Assembly (NCBI RefSeq): GCF_008831155.1
Contig: NZ_WBKB01000001.1
Location: forward strand, 372,001 to 436,000
DNA: 64,000 bases
Direction of reading: 5' to 3'
DNA from: Gulosibacter chungangensis
GTDB lineage: Bacteria; Actinomycetota; Actinomycetes; Actinomycetales; Microbacteriaceae
The position numbers were made by a program, and so were the translations under genes. The notes beneath the pieces are model-generated. The model worked only from the letters and a program-made list of their open reading frames with translations. It was not told the DNA's origin and searched no databases. This document shows positions 10,196-19,554 of the stretch, in pieces. Positions within the stretch are counted from its first letter, which is position 1; every line of letters begins with the position of its first letter.

Positions 10196-10303
10196 TTTCG
10201 ATACGGCCTACGGCCTACTTAACGGGCGAGCAGGAAGCCGGTCACTGAGTAGGAGCCAAGCGACGTATCGAAGTGGCTCCTTCGATACGCTCCGCTACTC
10301 AGG
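10196..10303. repeat. REP-like palindromic element, copies 2 and 3 (compound)
   Basis: TTTCGATACGGCCTACGGCC begins near 10196 and is answered by CTGAGTAGGAGCC...GTATCGAAG near 10246-10273. A further half-element, CTTCGATACGCTCCGCTACT, follows at 10281-10300. The compound repeat separates the convergent PepSY and lipoate-ligase genes and can fold on both strands, so it probably also terminates transcription. Confidence 0.7.
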
Positions 10304-10314
10304 GATCGGTGGGG

Positions 10315-11382
10315 CTAGGGGACGCGGTGCGTCCACTCGCGGCTCGCGAACTTGGTTTCGGCCAGTTCGCGAGCCCGCGCCATTTCGGCGTCGGTGATCT
10401 CATCGGGCGTGCCGCCGTGCCGCGAAACAAACGTCTCCTTGAGGCTCTCGATAATCTCCGCGCGCGGCATCCCGGTCTGTGACTTCAGCGGCGATACTCG
10501 CTTCTTCGCCGACTTCGTGCCCTTGTCGCTCATCTTTTCGCGACCGATCCGCAACACCCGCACCATCCGCTCGGCGTCGATGTCATAGGACAGGGTCGCG
10601 TGATGCAATACCGCCCCAGAACCGAGCCGCTTCTGTGCGGCACCACCAATCTTCCCGTTGGGTGAGGCGATATCGTTCAGCGGCTCATAGGTTGCCTCAA
10701 TGCCGAGGTTATTGAGCGCCTCGAGCACCCACTCATCGAGGTACGCGTACGAGTCGGCGAAACTCATCCCACCGACCAGTTCAGCTGGCACGTAGAGCGA
10801 ATAGGTCACGACCGATTCGGCTTCCATGAACATCGCGCCGCCGCCCGAGATTCGGCGAATCACCTCGACGCCTTCAGCCCGGGCCGCGGCCATATCGATC
10901 TCATTCTTGACTGATTGGAAGGAGCCGATCACCGCCGCATCCTCATCCCACTCCCAAATCCGCAGGGTGGGTCCGCGCCTACCCGCGCCGACCTCTTCGG
11001 TCAGCACCTGGTCAAGGGCAACGTGCACGCGCGGCGGCAGCGGACTGGGATGCAGAATCTGCCAATCGTAGTCACGCCAATTTCGCGCTCCGGTCAGGGC
11101 TCGTCGCACCACCACGGCGATTGCTTCCGGCGAGAAGCCGAGCAGCTGCGCATCCTTCGGCAGCGCCTCGCGCACCGCACGGACGATGTCCTCAGAAGTC
11201 GACTCCGCAGGGAGCCCCTCGAGTCCCGAATTGAGATCGTCGAGGGCCTCATCGGGCTCCAGGAAGAAGTCGCCAGCGAGTCGCACGAACTCGAGCTTGC
11301 CGTCGGTGACATCGAAATCGATCACCACCAGCTTGCCGCCCGGCACCTTGTATTCACCGTGCAAGTCGCGCTTGTCCTGCAT
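10315..11382 (-). CDS. Lipoate-protein ligase A family protein with N-terminal accessory domain
   Basis: Predicted to attach lipoate or octanoate to 2-oxoacid dehydrogenase E2 or glycine-cleavage H protein. The 355-aa protein has an N-terminal domain of about 95 residues resembling the LplA accessory domain, then the biotin/lipoate ligase fold. RRISGGGAMFMEAESVVTY is the substrate-binding motif, and SPNGKIGGAAQKR carries the catalytic lysine. The accessory domain precedes the catalytic domain, the reverse of the E. coli order. GGAGGA lies 8 nt before the ATG. It could be an octanoyltransferase instead. Confidence 0.87.
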   Translation of the reverse strand: MQDKRDLHGEYKVPGGKLVVIDFDVTDGKLEFVRLAGDFFLEPDEALDDLNSGLEGLPAESTSEDIVRAVREALPKDAQLLGFSPEAIAVVVRRALTGARNWRDYDWQILHPSPLPPRVHVALDQVLTEEVGAGRRGPTLRIWEWDEDAAVIGSFQSVKNEIDMAAARAEGVEVIRRISGGGAMFMEAESVVTYSLYVPAELVGGMSFADSYAYLDEWVLEALNNLGIEATYEPLNDIASPNGKIGGAAQKRLGSGAVLHHATLSYDIDAERMVRVLRIGREKMSDKGTKSAKKRVSPLKSQTGMPRAEIIESLKETFVSRHGGTPDEITDAEMARARELAETKFASREWTHRVP

Positions 11383-11418
11383 CTGCGTCTTCCTCCTGCG
11401 AAACCTCGTTGATCATTT

Positions 11419-12339
11419 CTACCGCGTAGCCGGAGCTTCAAAGTGCCAGCGCAACCACTCGAGCAGTTCCGCGGTCACCTCATTACGGTCAAGTTCGTTG
11501 TAGACCTCGTGACGCGACTCCGGATAGATCCGGAAGGTGACATCGCGCATCCGGGTAATGTGCCGCAGGCTCCACGCGAGCGCGCGCGGTCCGCGCACTC
11601 CGTACCCGAGCGGGTCTTCGGTGCCGGTCATAACGAGTATCGGCACGCGTGCGGCACGACCGCAGCGCGGCGCGGGTGGCGCGGTGAGCAGCTGCACTGC
11701 CCCAAGCGGCGTCCACACCGAGGAGTCGGCGATATCGAAACCGTAGGGGTCATCGATCATGGCCTGCACTTCGGCGGGATCGCGGCTGAGCCAGCTCATG
11801 CCGTGACCGTCACCGGCCCACTTGGCGTTGTAATCGCCGGGGTTCACCAGTCCCGGCAGCGCCAGAGTCGTCCCGGTCCAGACAATCGCGTCAAATATCT
11901 CCGGTTCGTTCCAAAACAGCTGCTGGCCAAGCAGCGAGCCCCAGGAGTGGCCGGCTTCAATCAGCGGGATGCCCGGGTAGCGTCCCCGAGCCCAACGCAC
12001 GGTTTCGCGCAGCATCCTTCGAGCCGCGGGCATCCCGCCGGGGCCGAGATTACTCAGCCCCCAACTGCCGACGCCGGTGCGCCCGTGGCCGAGCATGTCT
12101 GCCGCGACGACCGCGTAGCCAGCATCCCGCAGTGCGTTCGCGAGCCGCTGATAGCGACGCGCGTGGTCGCCGGCGCCGTGCGAAACGTGCACGACGCCCT
12201 TCGGCGACCGCCCAGTCGCCCACTCGTACACGTGCACGTCGACACCCTCGATTCGCAGGATGTGTTCCACGTAGTCCACCTCGAAACCATCGTTTGAGGT
12301 GTCCATTCCCGGGGTGTAAAAGCGAGCGGAGACGGGCAT
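11419..12339 (-). CDS. Alpha/beta hydrolase (serine aminopeptidase S33 / monoacylglycerol lipase-like)
   Basis: Cytosolic hydrolase of 306 aa. The oxyanion region HVSHGAGDHARRY is near residue 52, the nucleophile elbow EAGHSWGSLLG near residue 128, and a C-terminal Asp/His pair lies in TGTEDPLGYG and YPESRHEVYNE. This matches the lysophospholipase / monoacylglycerol lipase family; the substrate is not evident. The start codon at 12339 follows the rocD stop by only 2 nt (TAGCCATG), indicating translational coupling with rocD. An alternative ATG is 33 nt downstream. Confidence 0.87.
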   Translation of the reverse strand: MPVSARFYTPGMDTSNDGFEVDYVEHILRIEGVDVHVYEWATGRSPKGVVHVSHGAGDHARRYQRLANALRDAGYAVVAADMLGHGRTGVGSWGLSNLGPGGMPAARRMLRETVRWARGRYPGIPLIEAGHSWGSLLGQQLFWNEPEIFDAIVWTGTTLALPGLVNPGDYNAKWAGDGHGMSWLSRDPAEVQAMIDDPYGFDIADSSVWTPLGAVQLLTAPPAPRCGRAARVPILVMTGTEDPLGYGVRGPRALAWSLRHITRMRDVTFRIYPESRHEVYNELDRNEVTAELLEWLRWHFEAPATR

Positions 12340-12341
12340 GG

Positions 12342-13595
12342 CTACTCAGCAGCTCCGGCGGACTGCGCCTGCTGCCAGCGTGCTTCGATCACCTCGGTGA
12401 ATGCGTTGGTGATCTGCTCAATCTCTTCGCGAGACACGATGAACGGCGGCGCGAGACGGACGGTCTTGCCGCGGGTGTCCTTCGCGAGGATGCCCTTCTC
12501 GAGCAGGTCTTCGCAGACATCGTGGGCGTTGCCGATCGCGGGATCGATATCGACCCCGGCCCAGAGGCCCGCACCGCGAACATCGGTGACGCCGCGGCCG
12601 ACGAGCGCGCGCAGCGGCTCGAAGAGCACCGGATGCAGGTCCTGGCTGTTCTGCTGCCATTTACCGGTCGCGAGTTCATCCACCACGGCCTTACCGATCG
12701 CGGCCGCGAGCGGGTTGCCGCCGAAGGTGGAGCCGTGCGTGCCCGGCTCGAGCACTCCCAGCACATCCTTGTTGCCGATCACCGCCGACACCGGCAGGAT
12801 GCCGCCGCCGAGCGCCTTCGCGGTGGTGATGAGATCGGGTTCGATACCCTCAGCCTGGAAGCGGAAGGTCGTGCCGGTGCGGCCCATGCCGGTCTGCACC
12901 TCATCGAGGATGAGCAGCACATTGTGCTCGGCGGTGATCTTGCGCACCTCGGCGAGGTAGCCCGGGTCCGGAACAGCGACGCCCGCTTCGCCCTGAATCG
13001 GTTCGAGAATCACCGCGACGGTGTTCTCGTCGATTGCTGCTCGCAGCGCCTCGGCGTCGTTATAGGGCACCAGCTCGAAGCCCGGAGTAAACGGACCGTA
13101 GTCATTGCGAGCGATATCGTCGTCGCTGAGCGAAATCATGGTGGTGGTGCGGCCGTGGAAGTTCCCCTCGGCGCCAATGATCTTGGCCTGGTCGGCCGGT
13201 ACGCCCTTGACGCGGTAACCCCACTTGCGGGCGATCTTAATCGCAGTCTCATTCGCCTCGGCACCGGTGTTCATCGCCAGGATCATGTCCTTACCGGCGA
13301 GCTTCGCGAGCGCCTCGGCAAAGGCGCCAAAGCCTTCGACATATACGGCACGGGATGCAATGGAGATCTTCGAGGTCTGCTCGCGCAGCACTTCAATGAA
13401 CTTCGGGTACGAGTGCCCAAAGGTGGTGGCGCTGTAGGCCGAGAGGCAATCGATGTATCGCTTGCCGTCGACATCGGTGATCCAGGCGCCCTCGGCTGAT
13501 TCGAGGACGAGTTCGAGCGGCGCGTAGTTACTCGCGCTGTGATCCTTTACCTTGGCAATTTCGTCTATTGCGCGCGGCGATACAGAAGCGTTCAT
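12342..13595 (-). CDS. rocD: Ornithine aminotransferase
   Basis: PLP enzyme converting ornithine and 2-oxoglutarate to glutamate-5-semialdehyde and glutamate. The 417 aa show class III aminotransferase features: NTGAEANETAIKIARKWGY, NFHGRTT, LILDEVQTGMGRTG, and the Schiff-base lysine in ITTAKALGGGILPVSA near residue 255. The N-terminus, NYAPLELVLESAEGAWITD, is typical of RocD. The ATG is 6 nt after TAGGGT (13602-13607), so it has its own leaderless promoter inside the end of the upstream putA-like gene. Its product would normally be oxidised by a PutA/P5C dehydrogenase, yet the neighbouring PutA-like protein lacks the catalytic residues. Confidence 0.94.
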   Translation of the reverse strand: MNASVSPRAIDEIAKVKDHSASNYAPLELVLESAEGAWITDVDGKRYIDCLSAYSATTFGHSYPKFIEVLREQTSKISIASRAVYVEGFGAFAEALAKLAGKDMILAMNTGAEANETAIKIARKWGYRVKGVPADQAKIIGAEGNFHGRTTTMISLSDDDIARNDYGPFTPGFELVPYNDAEALRAAIDENTVAVILEPIQGEAGVAVPDPGYLAEVRKITAEHNVLLILDEVQTGMGRTGTTFRFQAEGIEPDLITTAKALGGGILPVSAVIGNKDVLGVLEPGTHGSTFGGNPLAAAIGKAVVDELATGKWQQNSQDLHPVLFEPLRALVGRGVTDVRGAGLWAGVDIDPAIGNAHDVCEDLLEKGILAKDTRGKTVRLAPPFIVSREEIEQITNAFTEVIEARWQQAQSAGAAE

Positions 13596-13610
13596 ATGGA
13601 AACCCTACCG

Positions 13611-16600
13611 CTACGCACGGCCAAGGAGGCTGGCATCCGGATCCCGCACGGTCTCGTGCGGGAAGAGGCCCCACATCCGCGCATCCGGCCGACCGTGACG
13701 GTGCGCGCAAATCGAAATTGACTGCTCACGGAGGAACGGCAGCATCTCGATGCGCCCCGCGAGGGTGACATCATCCGAGAACACCGCGATATCCACGCCG
13801 TTCTCGAGCGCCCCGCACACCTCACTGCGGGAGCCCCCAATGAGCCGCAGCCGCGGGGCCTTCGTGAGCCCAGCTGCCGCGATACGGGCAAGAAACTCGG
13901 CGTTCGATTCGATCCTTACCGCGGAGTCACGCAATTCCAGTTCTCGCGCGAGCGTGGGCGGGAGCGGCCAAGCTGTGGAAAGCATGATCCGCGCCCTGGC
14001 AACCGTGGCGGCGACGAGTACCTGACCGAGTTCATCGGCGGTGCCATCCTCCGAGAAGCGAATCACGCAGGGTGCCGGGCGGTAGCGGAAAAGATTCCGC
14101 TCCACGGGCAGATTGGTCGCATCCACGACCTCGCCGAATTCCTCATTCCAGGCAATTTGGCAGCTGAGTGCGGTGCGACGCACCCGTTCGAACTCATCGA
14201 AGGACATCCCCGGTTGCAGCGCCTCAATCAGCCTCGCCACGGGTTCTTCAAGCCCGCGCAGGTGCAGAGTGTGCGACTGTTCGTGTTCATCGGCACGCCA
14301 GCGACCGAGGTGAATCAGCGTGTTTGGACCACCCGACTTCAGCTTGGTGCCGATCATGGATTCTTTCCAACCGCCGGAGGGCTGTCGCTGCACCTGGTTG
14401 CCGAGCACATCCCGGTTCACGTAGAGGTTGCCGGCTTCAACGCCTTGCACCCACTGCGCAATCTCGGCGCGGTCGAGCGAGAAGAGCCCGGCGCCGAGGC
14501 CGTAGTCATAGCGATTTTGAATCTCGATCGCGTCTTCCAGCGTGCGCGCGGTGAGGATGTTGATCACCGGCACCGGAGCATCATTCTGCAGGGCCGTCGA
14601 GTCTGCGGCGAGGCCCGTGCGGATGCCCGGAGTCCAGAGCCGACCGGTGTCATCGAGGCTGCGCGGCTGCACGAGCCATTTTTCTTCCCCGGTGAGCTCG
14701 GTGAGCATCGCGAGTGCCTTGCCATTGGCCCGGCGCATGAGGGGACCCGCCTGTACGGAAGGATCCGAAGTATAGCCGGTTCTGGTGGAGGTGACCGCAT
14801 CGGCGAGCTGCTGAATGAAGCGTTCTGAGCGCGCCGCCGCACCCACGAGGATAACCGTGGAGGGCCGCAGCGGCATCTGCCCGGTCGCGGTCACGAGCGA
14901 GCGAGCGATCTCTGCCGCGGCCTGGTCATAGTCGGCCGCGGGAGTCACCACGACGGTGGATTTCCCGCCCACCGAACCGAGCAGCGGCAAATCCGGGCGC
15001 CACTCGAGGAAGCGCGCGGCCGTCACGTAGGCGCCCTGCATGAGCACGCGCTCGATCCGCTGATCCACGATGAGCTGTCTGCCGAACTGATCTTCATCCA
15101 TCATGCCGTGGTCGGCAGAGACCACCTGCAGCAGGTCGGCCGGCAGATCCGTGGACCACAGCACCCGCGCCAATACCGCCGCGGTCCGTGCCGTCCGGGC
15201 CGAAGCCTTGAGCACCACCGCACTCCCGGCTCCGAGCGCACCGAAGATCGTCGCCGCGTTGCTGGAAACCGGTGGGATCCAGCCAGGCACCGCGAGCGTG
15301 ACCTTTACGGGGTCGAACTGTGCCCCCTGCATCCGGTCGAGCTGGCGAGCCAGGTGGGCGTCGAAGTTCGCGAGGTCCACGGCCTTACTGACATCCGCAT
15401 CCACCTCGGCGAAGGTGAGCGAAGTCTCGTTCATCGCGACCTCGATCAACCGCGCCCGATTAGCGTCAATCGCCTTCGCGATCTGCTCGAGGCGAGCGGC
15501 GCGCTCCCAACCGCTGGTTTGACTCCAGGGCTCGCCTGCGGCTCGCGCGAGGCTGAGCACCTCGTCGATTTCGGCGGCAGATTTCAGCTTGTGACTCGCG
15601 GCCTCGGTGACCCCGAGTTCGGAATGTGCCGCGCGGCGCTGCACGCGGGCCGCCCAGTCGCGCGTGGAGCGGATGGTGGGGTCGGATGCGGGGTCATTGC
15701 GGAAGGTATTCCGCAGCAGCCGACCACGCCGCAGCCCGAGCACCACCTCGGTGAGGTTCGGGGCCGCGCCGGTGTCGGCGGGGTTGAGCTTGGCTTGGTC
15801 CGCGGCGTCGGTCGGCCGCACCTCGCGGGTTTCGCCGGCCGCCGCGGGGTCGTGGATTGTGCTGACTCCGGCTGCAGCAGTGTCGGCTTCCGCGCGCGAG
15901 CCGAGCACGGTGGTTTCGTTGGCCGTCTCGGTTGGCTGCGCGCTCCGCTCCGCGGGCGCCGACTGCGAGGGTTCGTCTTCGAGGAGCCCCTCAGGGAAGA
16001 GTTCGAGGGGAATGGATGCGGTGATGCCGGGGGCGTCTTCCGGCGCGATTCGAACTTGGCTGCGTACCGGACCGGCGTGGACCTGGTGCATCCGCGCCAT
16101 CGCCTGTAGCACCCGTTCGTCCTCTGAATGCACCCCGTCCACGCTGATATGCGCGGCCTCGTGCAGTCCGAGATCCCGCTCGGCACGGGTCACGAGCGAC
16201 CACAAATAGGTGCCCGCCGGGCGCAGTTTGTCCCCCGGAATCAATGGCACTCGTGTGCATACCCGCACGCCGAACTGCTGAAAACGGGCGCGAATCTCCG
16301 ACGCATCCGCCCGGTCAAGGACAATGCCCAAGGTGGCGTAGTTTTCGCGCATCCGCCCGAGGTGAGCGGCAAAGACCGCGTCCATCCGCACCTCGCCGGA
16401 GACCTCGAGATCAATCACGCCGCGGTGTTCCGGGGCAAGGAGTGCGTCAATCGTGCGGAACATATTCGCGTCGACATCCGCGTCTTCCACATAGCTTGCG
16501 ACCTTCCAGCCGTGCAGCACGGCATCAGCCCGTTCCTGTGCGCGATCGGCTAGGCGATACAGCGAAACGCGTACCGGTGCCCCACCGTCTTCGCGACGCA

Positions 16601-17765
16601 GGTGCGCGCGACCGGTAAGCCTTCGCAGCAGCGTGCTCGAATCGGGGAAATCCACCGGGACGACCACGCCCAGCTGGGCACGTTCGAGGCCGTGGAAATC
16701 CATCGCCCGGATCACCGTCTCGATGACCAGCTCCAGGTCGCGTGAGGAAGTCGCGCGCAATAGCAACGTGACGTTCTGCTGCATTGCCTCCTGCAGCAGC
16801 GTGGCGTAGCGCATCGCCGCCTGATCGGCATTGCCCTCAAAATTCCAGTCGCACGCCTGCGGATTGAAATCGCTCCAAGTGAGTTCGAGCTCGGTGACCG
16901 CGGGATTCGCGATCAACCCCCGCACCCGCTCGAGCACCGCATCCATCCCGACGTCGCCGAGAACCGCGTCACTCAGCGGCACGACACGGGCCGCGCCATT
17001 CTGCTCGTGAATCGATGCGAGCGCAGTCTCGAGGTTGCTTTCGCGTGTGAGCGCGTCCCCAAAGAACGCCTGCGCCCCGCGACGGACTGCCGGCACCGCT
17101 ACGAACGGAATGCCGGGCCCGGCGAAAGCGCCGAGTTTGAAGAACCGGCGAGTTTTCGGGGTAAGCGAGGGCGGAATCTCATCCCGCAGATCGCTGAGCC
17201 CGAACCCCGAGGCGAGCAGGTCATCCGGCCGAATCACATCGTCGATCAGCCGACGCAGGAAATCGGCGCCGCCGGAGGCCCGCAGCGCACGCAGGAAATC
17301 ACTTGCGGGGTCGAGCTTGTCCCGTTGTCGAGGACTCGTCGCCTCGTCCTGCGCCTTGCGGACAGCAGCATGCTCGCGCTGGTCAAGATCGCGCCATTCG
17401 GCGAGTGTGTGCAGCGTTGCGGGGATGGCCTGATCGGCTGGCACGCTCGGCCCAGCCGGTGCGAAGACCGGTTCGGGGCGTACCGCGGGCTGGATCTGGT
17501 TGGGCAGGATGATCGCATCGGGTTGGATGCTCTCACCGGGCTGGTTGACCGGATCAGGCTGGCCGAGGCCGCTCCAGCCAGCAGCTCCGGGATCATCATC
17601 GGCTTGCTTCTTTTCAAGAATTTCGCGCACGAGATCGGCGCGCTCAACGCGCCGAGCCCGAACCTGCTCAATGTCTCCGCGGTGAAGTTCGTCTTCCCCG
17701 CGACGTCCCCTGGAATCATTCGAGCGTGGCCCGTTCGCTTCATCGGGGGTGAAAGGAGTTGCCAT
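13611..17765 (-). CDS. PutA-like protein, predicted catalytically inactive (pseudoenzyme)
   Basis: A 1384-aa protein with full bifunctional PutA architecture: N-terminal helical arm, proline-dehydrogenase barrel (about residues 170-560), Ala/Thr/Glu-rich linker (590-690), P5C-dehydrogenase domain (about 700-1150) and the PutA C-terminal domain. Key residues are missing. The PRODH motif RLVKGA aligns with RVSLYR (399-404) and the paired arginines of YLVRRxxE with YLWSLV (S523, L524). In the dehydrogenase, the general-base Glu of LLAETSGKN becomes Ser931 (LLGSVGGKS), and the nucleophile Cys of GQKCSA becomes Pro965 (GQMPLRP). The Glu-to-Cys spacing of 34 residues is preserved, arguing against misalignment. 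The frame is open throughout, so this is not simple decay. Leaderless start after TAGGCT (17772-17777). A regulatory or scaffolding role is inference. Confidence 0.85.
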   Translation of the reverse strand: MATPFTPDEANGPRSNDSRGRRGEDELHRGDIEQVRARRVERADLVREILEKKQADDDPGAAGWSGLGQPDPVNQPGESIQPDAIILPNQIQPAVRPEPVFAPAGPSVPADQAIPATLHTLAEWRDLDQREHAAVRKAQDEATSPRQRDKLDPASDFLRALRASGGADFLRRLIDDVIRPDDLLASGFGLSDLRDEIPPSLTPKTRRFFKLGAFAGPGIPFVAVPAVRRGAQAFFGDALTRESNLETALASIHEQNGAARVVPLSDAVLGDVGMDAVLERVRGLIANPAVTELELTWSDFNPQACDWNFEGNADQAAMRYATLLQEAMQQNVTLLLRATSSRDLELVIETVIRAMDFHGLERAQLGVVVPVDFPDSSTLLRRLTGRAHLRREDGGAPVRVSLYRLADRAQERADAVLHGWKVASYVEDADVDANMFRTIDALLAPEHRGVIDLEVSGEVRMDAVFAAHLGRMRENYATLGIVLDRADASEIRARFQQFGVRVCTRVPLIPGDKLRPAGTYLWSLVTRAERDLGLHEAAHISVDGVHSEDERVLQAMARMHQVHAGPVRSQVRIAPEDAPGITASIPLELFPEGLLEDEPSQSAPAERSAQPTETANETTVLGSRAEADTAAAGVSTIHDPAAAGETREVRPTDAADQAKLNPADTGAAPNLTEVVLGLRRGRLLRNTFRNDPASDPTIRSTRDWAARVQRRAAHSELGVTEAASHKLKSAAEIDEVLSLARAAGEPWSQTSGWERAARLEQIAKAIDANRARLIEVAMNETSLTFAEVDADVSKAVDLANFDAHLARQLDRMQGAQFDPVKVTLAVPGWIPPVSSNAATIFGALGAGSAVVLKASARTARTAAVLARVLWSTDLPADLLQVVSADHGMMDEDQFGRQLIVDQRIERVLMQGAYVTAARFLEWRPDLPLLGSVGGKSTVVVTPAADYDQAAAEIARSLVTATGQMPLRPSTVILVGAAARSERFIQQLADAVTSTRTGYTSDPSVQAGPLMRRANGKALAMLTELTGEEKWLVQPRSLDDTGRLWTPGIRTGLAADSTALQNDAPVPVINILTARTLEDAIEIQNRYDYGLGAGLFSLDRAEIAQWVQGVEAGNLYVNRDVLGNQVQRQPSGGWKESMIGTKLKSGGPNTLIHLGRWRADEHEQSHTLHLRGLEEPVARLIEALQPGMSFDEFERVRRTALSCQIAWNEEFGEVVDATNLPVERNLFRYRPAPCVIRFSEDGTADELGQVLVAATVARARIMLSTAWPLPPTLARELELRDSAVRIESNAEFLARIAAAGLTKAPRLRLIGGSRSEVCGALENGVDIAVFSDDVTLAGRIEMLPFLREQSISICAHRHGRPDARMWGLFPHETVRDPDASLLGRA

Positions 17766-17853
17766 AGAGCGAGCCTAACGACGTCGGCCGAAAGTATGGC
17801 GTGCCACTCGCCGCAAAGGTTCGTCTCTAGCGTGTCTTCGGCGCTACCAGGCG

Positions 17854-18756
17854 CTAGCGCAGATCGTGCTGACCGGTATCCGGCCGGGCTTCATCCGAAG
17901 CCGGCACGTCTTCCTTGCTGATCAGGGCATCGTCATCCCAGGCCGCGAGCGTACGCAGGTCGATCATCGCGGTTTCCGGCATGACCTCGCCTCCCGCAAC
18001 CCATGCGAGACCGTCCAACAGCGATCCCACCGAACGGTGTCGCGCGACCACGTCAATGCGCAAGCCGAGTGCCCGCCCATCCTTCGCTGTGCGAGGACCG
18101 ATCGCGCCGAGGATGATGTCCTCCGGAATGTGGTGGAACTGCTTGATGAGCTGTTCCGCTACCGAACCGCTGGTGACAAGGATTGCGCGGATGCGGGAAT
18201 TCAGAATGTCGTGCTGGATAGATTCCGGTGCGGGGACCCCCACCGAACGGTAGGCGACCACCGACTCCACCCCGTGACCGCGGCGGCTCATACCGCGCGC
18301 GAGGGCGGGTTTGGAGGCTTCCGAGTGCAGCCAGAGCACGTTCACTTTCGGCATCCGTCGCTGAATTTCTGGCCACTCGACCAGCAAACCCTTTGCCGAG
18401 TTGTCGTGCGTGGGCACGAAATCGACCCGGTAGCCGCTGGCAGCCAGGGAGGATGCGGTGGTCTCCCCCGCGGCCGCAATCAGGGTGCCTTCGGGCACCC
18501 GCACGTTCATCGAGTGCATGACGTCGACCGCCGTGGCACTGGTCACCGCAAGCCAGTCGTAGGCACCGCCTTCGAGGCGTACGAGCGCTTCCGCGAGGAG
18601 ATCCGCGTCTTCCGGTGCGGGGCTCGCAAAATTGATCAGCGGTGCCGTGATGGGGAAAGCTCCCCGCGCGCGTACAGCTTCGGCAGCATCATTACCGAAA
18701 GTTCCACCGCGCGGCACGAGAACCTTCCAGCCCTTGAGAGGCTGGCCTGTCGTCAT
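17854..18756 (-). CDS. hemD: Uroporphyrinogen-III synthase
   Basis: Cyclises hydroxymethylbilane to uroporphyrinogen III, the branch point of heme and corrinoid synthesis. The 300-aa protein opens with GWKVLVPRGGTFGNDAAEAV and contains YDWLAVTSATAVDVM and VNVLWLHSEASKPALARG. TSGSVAEQLI and LGAIGPRTAKDGRALG follow. All are typical of actinobacterial HemD. About 40 extra C-terminal residues are acidic and probably disordered. No other canonical tetrapyrrole gene is adjacent except the degenerate HemQ-like gene upstream (58 bp gap, same strand). Whether the cell makes heme cannot be judged from this window. Confidence 0.87.
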   Translation of the reverse strand: MTTGQPLKGWKVLVPRGGTFGNDAAEAVRARGAFPITAPLINFASPAPEDADLLAEALVRLEGGAYDWLAVTSATAVDVMHSMNVRVPEGTLIAAAGETTASSLAASGYRVDFVPTHDNSAKGLLVEWPEIQRRMPKVNVLWLHSEASKPALARGMSRRGHGVESVVAYRSVGVPAPESIQHDILNSRIRAILVTSGSVAEQLIKQFHHIPEDIILGAIGPRTAKDGRALGLRIDVVARHRSVGSLLDGLAWVAGGEVMPETAMIDLRTLAAWDDDALISKEDVPASDEARPDTGQHDLR

Positions 18757-18813
18757 AGTTGCCGTCCGTTTCAGTACTTGGAGGAATACCGCTTAGTGAA
18801 TGCCATTCCTAAG

Positions 18814-19554
18814 CTATCGAAGTATCTCGTAGAGTTCAGCCGGGGTCACAAAGCGCCCTGTGCGAGGTGTCGCTACGGTCATCAGACCATTTTCCAACAA
18901 ACCGAGGGAGGGTCCGATCAGCTCGCCCGGATCATCCGCTTCCACGGCCGCAAACAGTCTGACCGGTCCGGTACCGATCTGGGCGTGCAAGCTCGTGGTT
19001 TCGAGGATCGCTTCCTGGGCGCCGGCCTCGCCGTCTGCGGCCAGATCCAGGTCTTCGAGATCCGCTGGCGTCGCCTCGGTCGTGTCATCGTCGTCTTCGA
19101 ATTCCTCGTCGAGGTTATCGATATCGGGATCGTCGATTTCCTCGCCCTCGAACTCTTCGTCAACCGGGCCGGGAGACACCGGCACGAAGCTAATCCAACC
19201 GCCGGGTTCATCCGCGAGTTCGCTCACACCCAGGGTCAGGATCGACTCAATCGCGAGCGTGTCTCCGAGGATCTGCGTGCGGTGCAGCTGTCGCTTTGCC
19301 CACTGCAGATCGTCGACGGTCTCAGAAGTGAGCCAGATCATCACCGAAGCACTCGCGTCAAAGCCGGTGAGGTCATAGACACCACGGACGCGGACATGTT
19401 CCTCGGTGAGTTCCGTAAACACCGAGTCGAGTTCTTTCGTGAGTCGAATCGCTTCGTCGCCCGAAGCGCGCGTTTCGATCAGTTCGGTCTCAGCAAATAC
19501 CAAGAACAGCGAGTAGACGGCAGCACCTTCAGTGAAATCTACAGTTTCGGTCAT
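18814..19554 (-). CDS. HemQ-like (chlorite dismutase-family) protein with heme-binding core replaced by acidic linker
   Basis: A 246-aa protein whose ends match coproheme decarboxylase HemQ. N-terminal: YSLFLVF, VRGVYDLTGFDASASVMIWL and LQWAKRQLHRTQILG. C-terminal: RLFAAVEADDPGEL and GRFVTPAELYEIL, equivalent to the EADEL and GRRVSPAEL segments. The middle, which in HemQ carries the YPFxRSxEWY tyrosine region and the proximal heme histidine, is reduced to WISFVPVSPGPV. About 55 mostly Asp/Glu residues then run from roughly 132 to 185. Neither heme-ligand nor catalytic residues remain, so decarboxylase activity is unlikely. It lies upstream of hemD in the orientation expected of a heme locus. 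Homology is inferred by eye. Confidence 0.7.
   Translation of the reverse strand: MTETVDFTEGAAVYSLFLVFAETELIETRASGDEAIRLTKELDSVFTELTEEHVRVRGVYDLTGFDASASVMIWLTSETVDDLQWAKRQLHRTQILGDTLAIESILTLGVSELADEPGGWISFVPVSPGPVDEEFEGEEIDDPDIDNLDEEFEDDDDTTEATPADLEDLDLAADGEAGAQEAILETTSLHAQIGTGPVRLFAAVEADDPGELIGPSLGLLENGLMTVATPRTGRFVTPAELYEILR

Follow-up and report, generated by a model that had tools for sequence, protein, structure and literature searches.

What purpose is served by a PutA protein that has lost the catalytic residues of both of its enzyme domains, and yet is preserved about as carefully as a working enzyme? The question is raised by a gene of Gulosibacter chungangensis (family Microbacteriaceae), here called pseudo-PutA, which lies in a 64,000-nucleotide stretch of DNA (assembly GCF_008831155.1, contig NZ_WBKB01000001.1, positions 372,001 to 436,000 of the forward strand), hereafter the window. 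An earlier note on this DNA had described an open PutA-type frame of 1384 codons, which is borne out here, and had proposed that it encodes a maintained pseudoenzyme, naming as checks an alignment with PutA relatives, a search for a second, intact putA, and a comparison of the ratio of nonsynonymous to synonymous substitution rates (dN/dS) among related genomes. As detailed below, the catalytic Cys, Glu and Asn are absent from every aligned copy, purifying selection persists, and new invariant residues have appeared, and we consider it very likely that pseudo-PutA is a maintained, neofunctionalised pseudoenzyme. We lean, with less assurance, towards a fuller account in which a vertically inherited PutA lost both chemistries and was kept as a ligand-responsive scaffold; the non-catalytic scaffold mechanism itself is a tentative proposal.

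The protein can be assigned to PutA in spite of its divergence. The Pfam Aldedh model matches residues 723-1142 with 222 bits, while the Pro_dh match (residues 295-454) attains 23.5 bits and falls below the cut-off of 27, which is reached by the pseudo-PutA copies of genomes G073, G153 and G136. The best solved-structure sequence match is 5ux5, the PutA of Corynebacterium freiburgense (E 1.7e-107), and an AlphaFold2 model of residues 116-600, built upon an alignment of seven rows of which two are motif-intact PutAs, contains eight barrel strands at a mean predicted local distance difference test score (pLDDT) of 85 and has 5ux5 as its best Foldseek match (E 1.4e-16, template modelling score 0.61 over the query). 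Homology is accepted despite the sub-cut-off Pro_dh score because the alignment and the modelled fold both support the barrel, and the chain is thereby predicted to hold a proline dehydrogenase (PRODH) barrel followed by a pyrroline-5-carboxylate (P5C) dehydrogenase domain (P5CDH) of the aldehyde dehydrogenase (ALDH) type. The cut-offs of the NCBIfam PutA equivalogs are missed (NF008869, 137.6 against 747 bits; NF008772, 119.5 against 1750 bits), which says little since the organism's own motif-intact PutA is likewise below both cut-offs (363 and 280 bits). No Pfam match to a ribbon-helix-helix (RHH) domain, the N-terminal mark of type C PutA, was found in the N-terminus of the window protein at E 0.001.

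The residue counts given throughout refer to 19 pseudo-PutA rows, which exclude the frame-split G154 and the contig-split G155, and to 58 comparison rows, in which three genes stand twice (G100, G153 and G156, each as a full and a partial read); 'intact' denotes a PutA in which the motifs are present. The features of the gene are as follows.

13611..17765 (-): pseudo-PutA gene, 1384 codons, ATG at 17765, stop at 13611, frame uninterrupted
17604..17657 (-): N-terminal motif ARRVERADLVREILEKKQ, residues 37-54, in a tail that is otherwise variable (core pattern R[AV][DE][LFI]V[RK])
15996..17420 (-): domain of PRODH type with a (beta/alpha)8 barrel, residues 116-590; its catalytic residues are substituted (AlphaFold2 model, Foldseek, motifs)
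16986..16988 (-): Arg260 on beta1, shared by 19/19 pseudo-PutAs; intact PutA has Asn
16755..16757 (-): Arg337 on beta3, shared by 19/19 pseudo-PutAs; intact PutA has Asp
16554..16556 (-): Arg404 directly behind beta5, shared by 18/19 pseudo-PutAs; intact PutA has the KGA Lys
16404..16406 (-): Glu454 on beta6, shared by 19/19 pseudo-PutAs; intact PutA has Gly
16251..16253 (-): Arg505 on beta8, shared by 19/19 pseudo-PutAs; intact PutA has Tyr
16194..16199 (-): Ser523-Leu524, replacing the proline-carboxylate Arg pair (alignment)
15753..15995 (-): variable interdomain linker, residues 591-671 (49% identity between the window and G153, against 85% for ALDH)
14196..15752 (-): ALDH (P5CDH-like) domain, residues 672-1190 (Pfam Aldedh, 222 bits)
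15276..15278 (-): Ile830, replacing the oxyanion-hole Asn (alignment)
14973..14975 (-): Ser931, replacing the general-base Glu (alignment)
14871..14873 (-): Pro965, replacing the catalytic Cys (alignment)
13614..14195 (-): C-terminal domain, residues 1191-1384

We take the residue roles of Sinorhizobium PutA to carry over to the motifs read here, a step that is our own. The roles in question, as published (PMC12398946), are those of Cys844, Glu810, Asn707, Phe708 and the anchor loop, and of Lys265, Tyr473, Arg488-Arg489 and Glu225. In the window protein, residues 399-404 read RVSLYR in place of RLVKGA; Ser523-Leu524 occupy the Arg pair of YLVRRxxE; Ser931 stands at the Glu of AETSGKN, and Pro965 at the Cys of GQKCSA, 34 residues on. 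All of these alterations are as the earlier note had described them. Beyond its list, the oxyanion Asn of PPWNFP is Ile830, and PRODH Asp225, Glu227 and Tyr393 (numbered as in the genome's own intact PutA) are Arg337, Thr339 and Arg505. Of the PRODH substrate-site set, then, Lys, Asp and Tyr have each become Arg and Arg-Arg has become Ser-Leu.

Extension of the alignment to relatives of the protein gave the same picture. The ALDH set (Cys nucleophile, general-base Glu and oxyanion Asn) is filled in 57/57 comparison rows that cover those columns and in 0/19 pseudo-PutAs, and the PRODH Asp and Tyr columns are both Arg in 19/19. The KGA Lys, where it is exchanged for Arg, retains its positive charge. 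Loss of the Arg pair is not universal, as both residues are kept in 3/19 copies and the second in 12/19, and the KPA lysine is kept in 15/19. The anchor loop has lost its Thr in 19/19 copies and its Ala in 18/19. At the E-x-F-G-P motif, the Glu is kept in 8/19 pseudo-PutAs, all eight being among the ten copies of a second genus, g73; in Gulosibacter it is Asp in 8/9 copies and the F-G is lost in 9/9, and in the window protein EYFGP has the conservative Asp1062 followed by P-V rather than F-G. As far as these alignments can tell, the loss of catalytic residues is common to both genera, and erosion of the motif that contacts NAD has gone further in Gulosibacter. We considered whether another cysteine might have assumed the role of the nucleophile and rejected this, given that the window ALDH domain is without any Cys (residues 690-1190) and that those of other copies are never in the nucleophile column. 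A Cys at the column of window residue 884, which is not the nucleophile column, occurs in 10/19 pseudo-PutAs.

Selection on the gene was estimated by the Nei-Gojobori method, with g73 values computed without the N-terminal tail and domain values given as a ratio of means. Across five close g73 genomes, dN/dS is 0.035-0.084 for pseudo-PutA (10 pairs) and 0.055-0.086 for intact PutA (10 pairs), neither being near 1, and purifying selection on pseudo-PutA in these genomes is by this measure about as strong as that upon motif-intact PutA. For the ALDH domain the estimates indicate that selection is stronger on the pseudo copy (0.022) than on the intact one (0.078), and among the folded parts it is this domain that shows the lowest dN/dS in those pseudo pairs that were compared by domain. 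The pseudo ALDH domain is strictly kept, although by its residues it is unable to act as an aldehyde dehydrogenase through the known mechanism. When the window (G000) is compared with G153, identity is 77.9% for the pseudo protein and for the intact one alike, the ALDH dN/dS is 0.073 for the pseudo copy against 0.165 for the intact with dS near saturation, and the pseudo ALDH identity of 85% is similar to that of six neighbouring genes (81-90%). Two further Gulosibacter pseudo pairs gave dN/dS of 0.212 and 0.174, and dS exceeds 1 in three of the four Gulosibacter pseudo pairs. Lost catalytic motifs are thus found together with purifying selection, the combination by which a pseudoenzyme is recognised.

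Pseudo-PutA is present in 11/11 Gulosibacter genomes and 10/10 genomes of g73, and its frame is open in 19 of these 21, the exceptions being G154 and G155. Among 150 Microbacteriaceae genomes, all five that belong to Gulosibacter or g73 possess it, and at the 15 places that rank next by score (715 bits and lower, L040-L054) the catalytic residues are retained; the reading of motifs covered the best 20 places and a few more, and a different dead PutA of lower score may exist elsewhere. A 119-genome sample of the order yielded no further match scoring like a member. The genome of the window also encodes a second PutA of 1172 residues (L033 5341-8859, (-)) with all checked motifs intact, and such a second, motif-intact copy was found in 19/21 genomes, in G154 and G155 in pieces that were partly read. 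The remaining two, G157 and G136 (approximately 2 Mb, 99% complete; L106, L113), keep pseudo-PutA; searches of them yielded no intact PRODH and, at E 1e-60, no rocD. In G. sediminis (G154), pseudo-PutA, the adjoining oxidase gene and the second PutA each occupy more than one frame (L110 6203-10685 and 4557-5982; G154:C61:110143-113691), for which decay and assembly error are indistinguishable. In G156 a further frame, of 377 residues, gives a proline dehydrogenase match of its own (L093, G156:C49:13787-14539).

What has been gained in place of the lost residues is most apparent in the barrel. Invariant positions and strand layers were compared using 51 of the 58 comparison rows, repeats removed. 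Seven PRODH positions have switched from one invariant residue to another, each in 19/19 pseudo-PutAs; in the ALDH domain 57 of the 122 invariants of intact PutA are kept and 142 columns are invariant among the 19 pseudo-PutAs. One position per barrel strand has changed in concert, so that beta1 to beta8 read R-E-R-P-R-E-V-R: to the five Arg and Glu positions listed above are added Ser to Glu294 on beta2 (17 Glu, 2 Asp), Gln to Pro370 on beta4 (19/19) and Glu to Val482 on beta7 (16/19). This is the layer which holds the catalytic Asp, Lys and Tyr in intact PutA. New charged invariants fall on strand positions in 6/11 cases against 57/254 core positions (Fisher p 0.018), in a test made after the pattern had been seen and with strands taken from the predicted structure; the other five (381, 388, 391, 392 and 494) are off the strands. 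An off-strand cluster (window 16584-16604, residues 388-394) has His388, Arg391 and Glu392 in 19/19. The N-terminal tail is variable apart from the motif ARRVERADLVRxIxxK, whose core pattern occurs in 20/20 assessable pseudo-PutAs (G163, cut by a contig end, is excluded) and in 0/58 comparison rows within the first 200 residues. No second copy of the motif was found in the genome of the window at E 10, a 42-residue stretch that surrounds it occurring once. Judged from the aligned rows and their tree, all 19 copies have lost the catalytic Cys, Glu and Asn, belong to one clade, and bear new invariants.

That clade (SH-aLRT 100, stem length 1.29) was recovered in an outgroup-rooted tree of 68 proteins, obtained by a rapid search with no bootstrap; nine partial rows of 77 were excluded from it, and its three named outgroup rows are not one side of a branch. 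It is nested within a 36-row clade (SH-aLRT 98) together with 17 motif-intact family PutAs, which we call PutA1, and the intact PutA of the window genome falls elsewhere, outside PutA1. Four Gulosibacter intact PutAs entered the tree (L128-L130, L033), out of ten genomes with one, and form two clades, G000/G153 and G100/G156, whereas among the pseudo-PutAs G156 groups with G000/G153. It appears from these groupings that the working PutA gene was replaced by transfer in Gulosibacter and that the dead one was not exchanged, because the intact clades differ from the pseudo-PutA grouping.

The surroundings of the gene in the window are as follows.

10315..11382 (-): lipoate-protein ligase-like gene (Pfam LplA-B_cat)
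11419..12339 (-): alpha/beta hydrolase, on the same strand as pseudo-PutA (Pfam Hydrolase_4)
12342..13595 (-): rocD, ornithine aminotransferase, 15 bases downstream of pseudo-PutA (TIGR01885, 455.5 bits, cut-off 378.4)
17854..18756 (-): HemD-like uroporphyrinogen-III synthase, upstream of pseudo-PutA on the shared strand (Pfam HEM4)

A promoter consensus scan over 10200-18900 returned 0 matches against 1.0 expected by chance. The composite order over species is HemD, 4HBT, pseudo-PutA, GlcD-like oxidase, Zn-dependent alcohol dehydrogenase, RocD, hydrolase and LplA, with genes absent or inserted in various species. rocD lies within 4 kb of pseudo-PutA in 9/11 Gulosibacter; it was sought by sequence in 13 of the 21 genomes, while eight further g73 loci were read for neighbours, and it was not found (E 1e-60) in 4/13 genomes that keep pseudo-PutA, G157 and G136 included. 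When 20 kb around each of 14 PutA1 genes was read, a rocD homologue was present at seven and a 4HBT thioesterase gene at six, against 0/7 and 0/7 for intact PutA loci of the other type. The proximity of rocD to pseudo-PutA looks ancestral, because a rocD homologue is also near 7/14 motif-intact PutA1 genes; the dead copy probably occupies the former place of PutA1, with rocD carried along. Downstream of pseudo-PutA, 14/21 genomes have a gene for a GlcD-like FAD-linked oxidase (5/11 Gulosibacter, 9/10 g73; L104 7706-9073, L105, L107, L108, L110, L113, L114, L187 and L189-L194), which is present at 0/21 intact PutA loci (14 PutA1 and seven of the other type). This oxidase is the best lead to a partner, and the window's own lineage lacks the gene there.

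How, then, might such a protein be put to use? The job of pseudo-PutA most likely differs from proline degradation, because the protein is preserved about as carefully as the working enzyme despite the loss of both sites. A ligand-responsive scaffold or adaptor fits best. We envisage that a PutA related to PutA1, often near rocD or a 4HBT gene, was inherited vertically; that PRODH and P5CDH chemistry would have been lost in the common ancestor of Gulosibacter and g73; and that the protein was then kept for a different, non-proline job. The ALDH and C-terminal parts may serve as a rigid interaction body, the conserved Arg/Glu layer of the emptied PRODH barrel may hold an anionic ligand or else lock the barrel, and the N-terminal motif on its flexible tail may tether a partner. 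The maintained pseudoenzyme of the earlier note is supported by the presence of the gene in 21/21 genomes, the low dN/dS and the second motif-intact putA, and of the roles it had suggested both sensor and scaffold are possible.

Several observations weigh against the scaffold account. Of 101 PRODH invariants of intact PutA only 19 are kept; in the five g73 genomes, the pseudo copy is less constrained than the intact one in both the PRODH domain (0.084 against 0.045) and the C-terminal domain (0.106 against 0.077); and the Gulosibacter pair G100-G151 reaches a pseudo dN/dS of 0.366 overall and 0.271 in ALDH. The gene is in two frames in G. sediminis. The model of the C-terminal half is poor (pLDDT 56) and was not used for any pocket or interface, and no neighbour gene that might name a partner is present at every pseudo locus read. 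Nesting inside PutA1 depends on the outgroup, because a midpoint root (first tree, 33 rows) places the pseudo clade opposite all intact rows.

The nearest competitor would have the barrel do more than sense. It is conceivable, if rather doubtful, that the barrel has been recoded into a new site (R260, E294, R337, P370, R404, E454, R505) that binds an anion or a metabolite and may even be catalytic, mounted upon a dead ALDH body of high conservation, with the N-terminal motif serving for docking; if true, a new function would have arisen on the frame of a two-enzyme protein. In its full form, with the invariant Arg/Glu layer running another reaction and the dead ALDH half as structural base, we think the proposal unlikely. 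The placement of 6/11 new charged invariants of the barrel core on strands and the seven switched positions speak in its favour, but 5/11 are off strands, the alternating Arg/Glu layer could be a mere salt-bridge core, a cofactor motif was not recognised, and in every domain-wise comparison constraint on the pseudo copy is weaker in PRODH than in ALDH.

A closer tie to proline metabolism is less probable again. Pseudo-PutA could regulate or stabilise intact PutA as its partner in a mixed oligomer, or it could regulate the flux of semialdehyde derived from RocD, the role that the earlier note had drawn from the adjacency of rocD; 19/21 genomes indeed hold a second PutA of the same protein family, and rocD is near at hand in 9/11 Gulosibacter. 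The gene is kept, however, in G157 and G136, where intact PRODH and rocD were not found, the two clades of Gulosibacter intact copies do not follow the pseudo-PutA grouping, and rocD homologues are near 7/14 intact PutA1 genes. We regard this as improbable, and the data speak against any role that needs intact PutA or RocD in every species; as a functional partner rocD is weakened, and the semialdehyde-flux proposal with it, by the rocD-less genomes (4/13) that keep pseudo-PutA and by its proximity to PutA1. A sensor of proline, P5C or NAD(H), in which binding is kept and catalysis lost, would account for the retained E-x-F-G-P Glu of 8/10 g73 copies, the Asp of 8/9 Gulosibacter copies and the KPA lysine of 15/19, but it must accommodate Arg at both the PRODH Tyr and Asp in 19/19, the oxyanion Asn lost in 19/19, the anchor-loop Thr lost in 19/19 and its Ala in 18/19, and F-G lost in 9/9 Gulosibacter copies, and is slightly less probable still. 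Ordinary decay of a redundant duplicate, to which the long stem of 1.29, the two frames in G. sediminis and the G100-G151 ratio of 0.366 might point, is rejected as highly improbable, since it is contradicted by the dN/dS of 0.035-0.084 across five close g73 genomes, by open frames in 19/21 genomes and by the new invariants; the data speak against simple decay.

Pseudo-PutA is an example from nature of a bifunctional, channelling enzyme whose two active sites have both been switched off while selection remains about that of the motif-intact copy in the same genomes. As an intact and a dead copy stand side by side in most genomes, the purpose of a dead metabolic enzyme becomes directly testable. 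Copies of this type could also be misnamed as proline-degrading enzymes. The open-licence literature searched yielded no account of a PutA with both halves dead, and nothing pairing Gulosibacter with PutA or proline dehydrogenase with pseudoenzyme.

Among known systems, 5ux5 PutA of Corynebacterium freiburgense, a PutA with a C-terminal domain, has in common with pseudo-PutA the order PRODH, ALDH and C-terminal domain; pseudo-PutA differs in being without the ALDH Cys, Glu and Asn, in its substituted PRODH site, and in its extra N-terminal tail and motif. Microbacteriaceae PutA1 proteins are the nearest intact relatives in the outgroup-rooted tree and part of their loci share the proximity to rocD or 4HBT, but the rows read keep the catalytic residues, and the pseudo clade is set off by its long stem. 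The trifunctional type C PutA of E. coli, which is an enzyme that also represses genes (PMC5293562), offers a precedent for a PutA with a non-enzymatic role. Type C is catalytic and bears an N-terminal RHH domain, whereas pseudo-PutA has no RHH match at E 0.001 by Pfam. Human ALDH16A1 is not a PutA and is not known to have a PRODH barrel. Like pseudo-PutA it has an ALDH fold without the catalytic Cys, and for this ALDH pseudoenzyme a role as a binding protein has been proposed (PMC8160307). Pseudo-PutA goes further than ALDH16A1, in that it lacks the catalytic residues in both enzyme domains.

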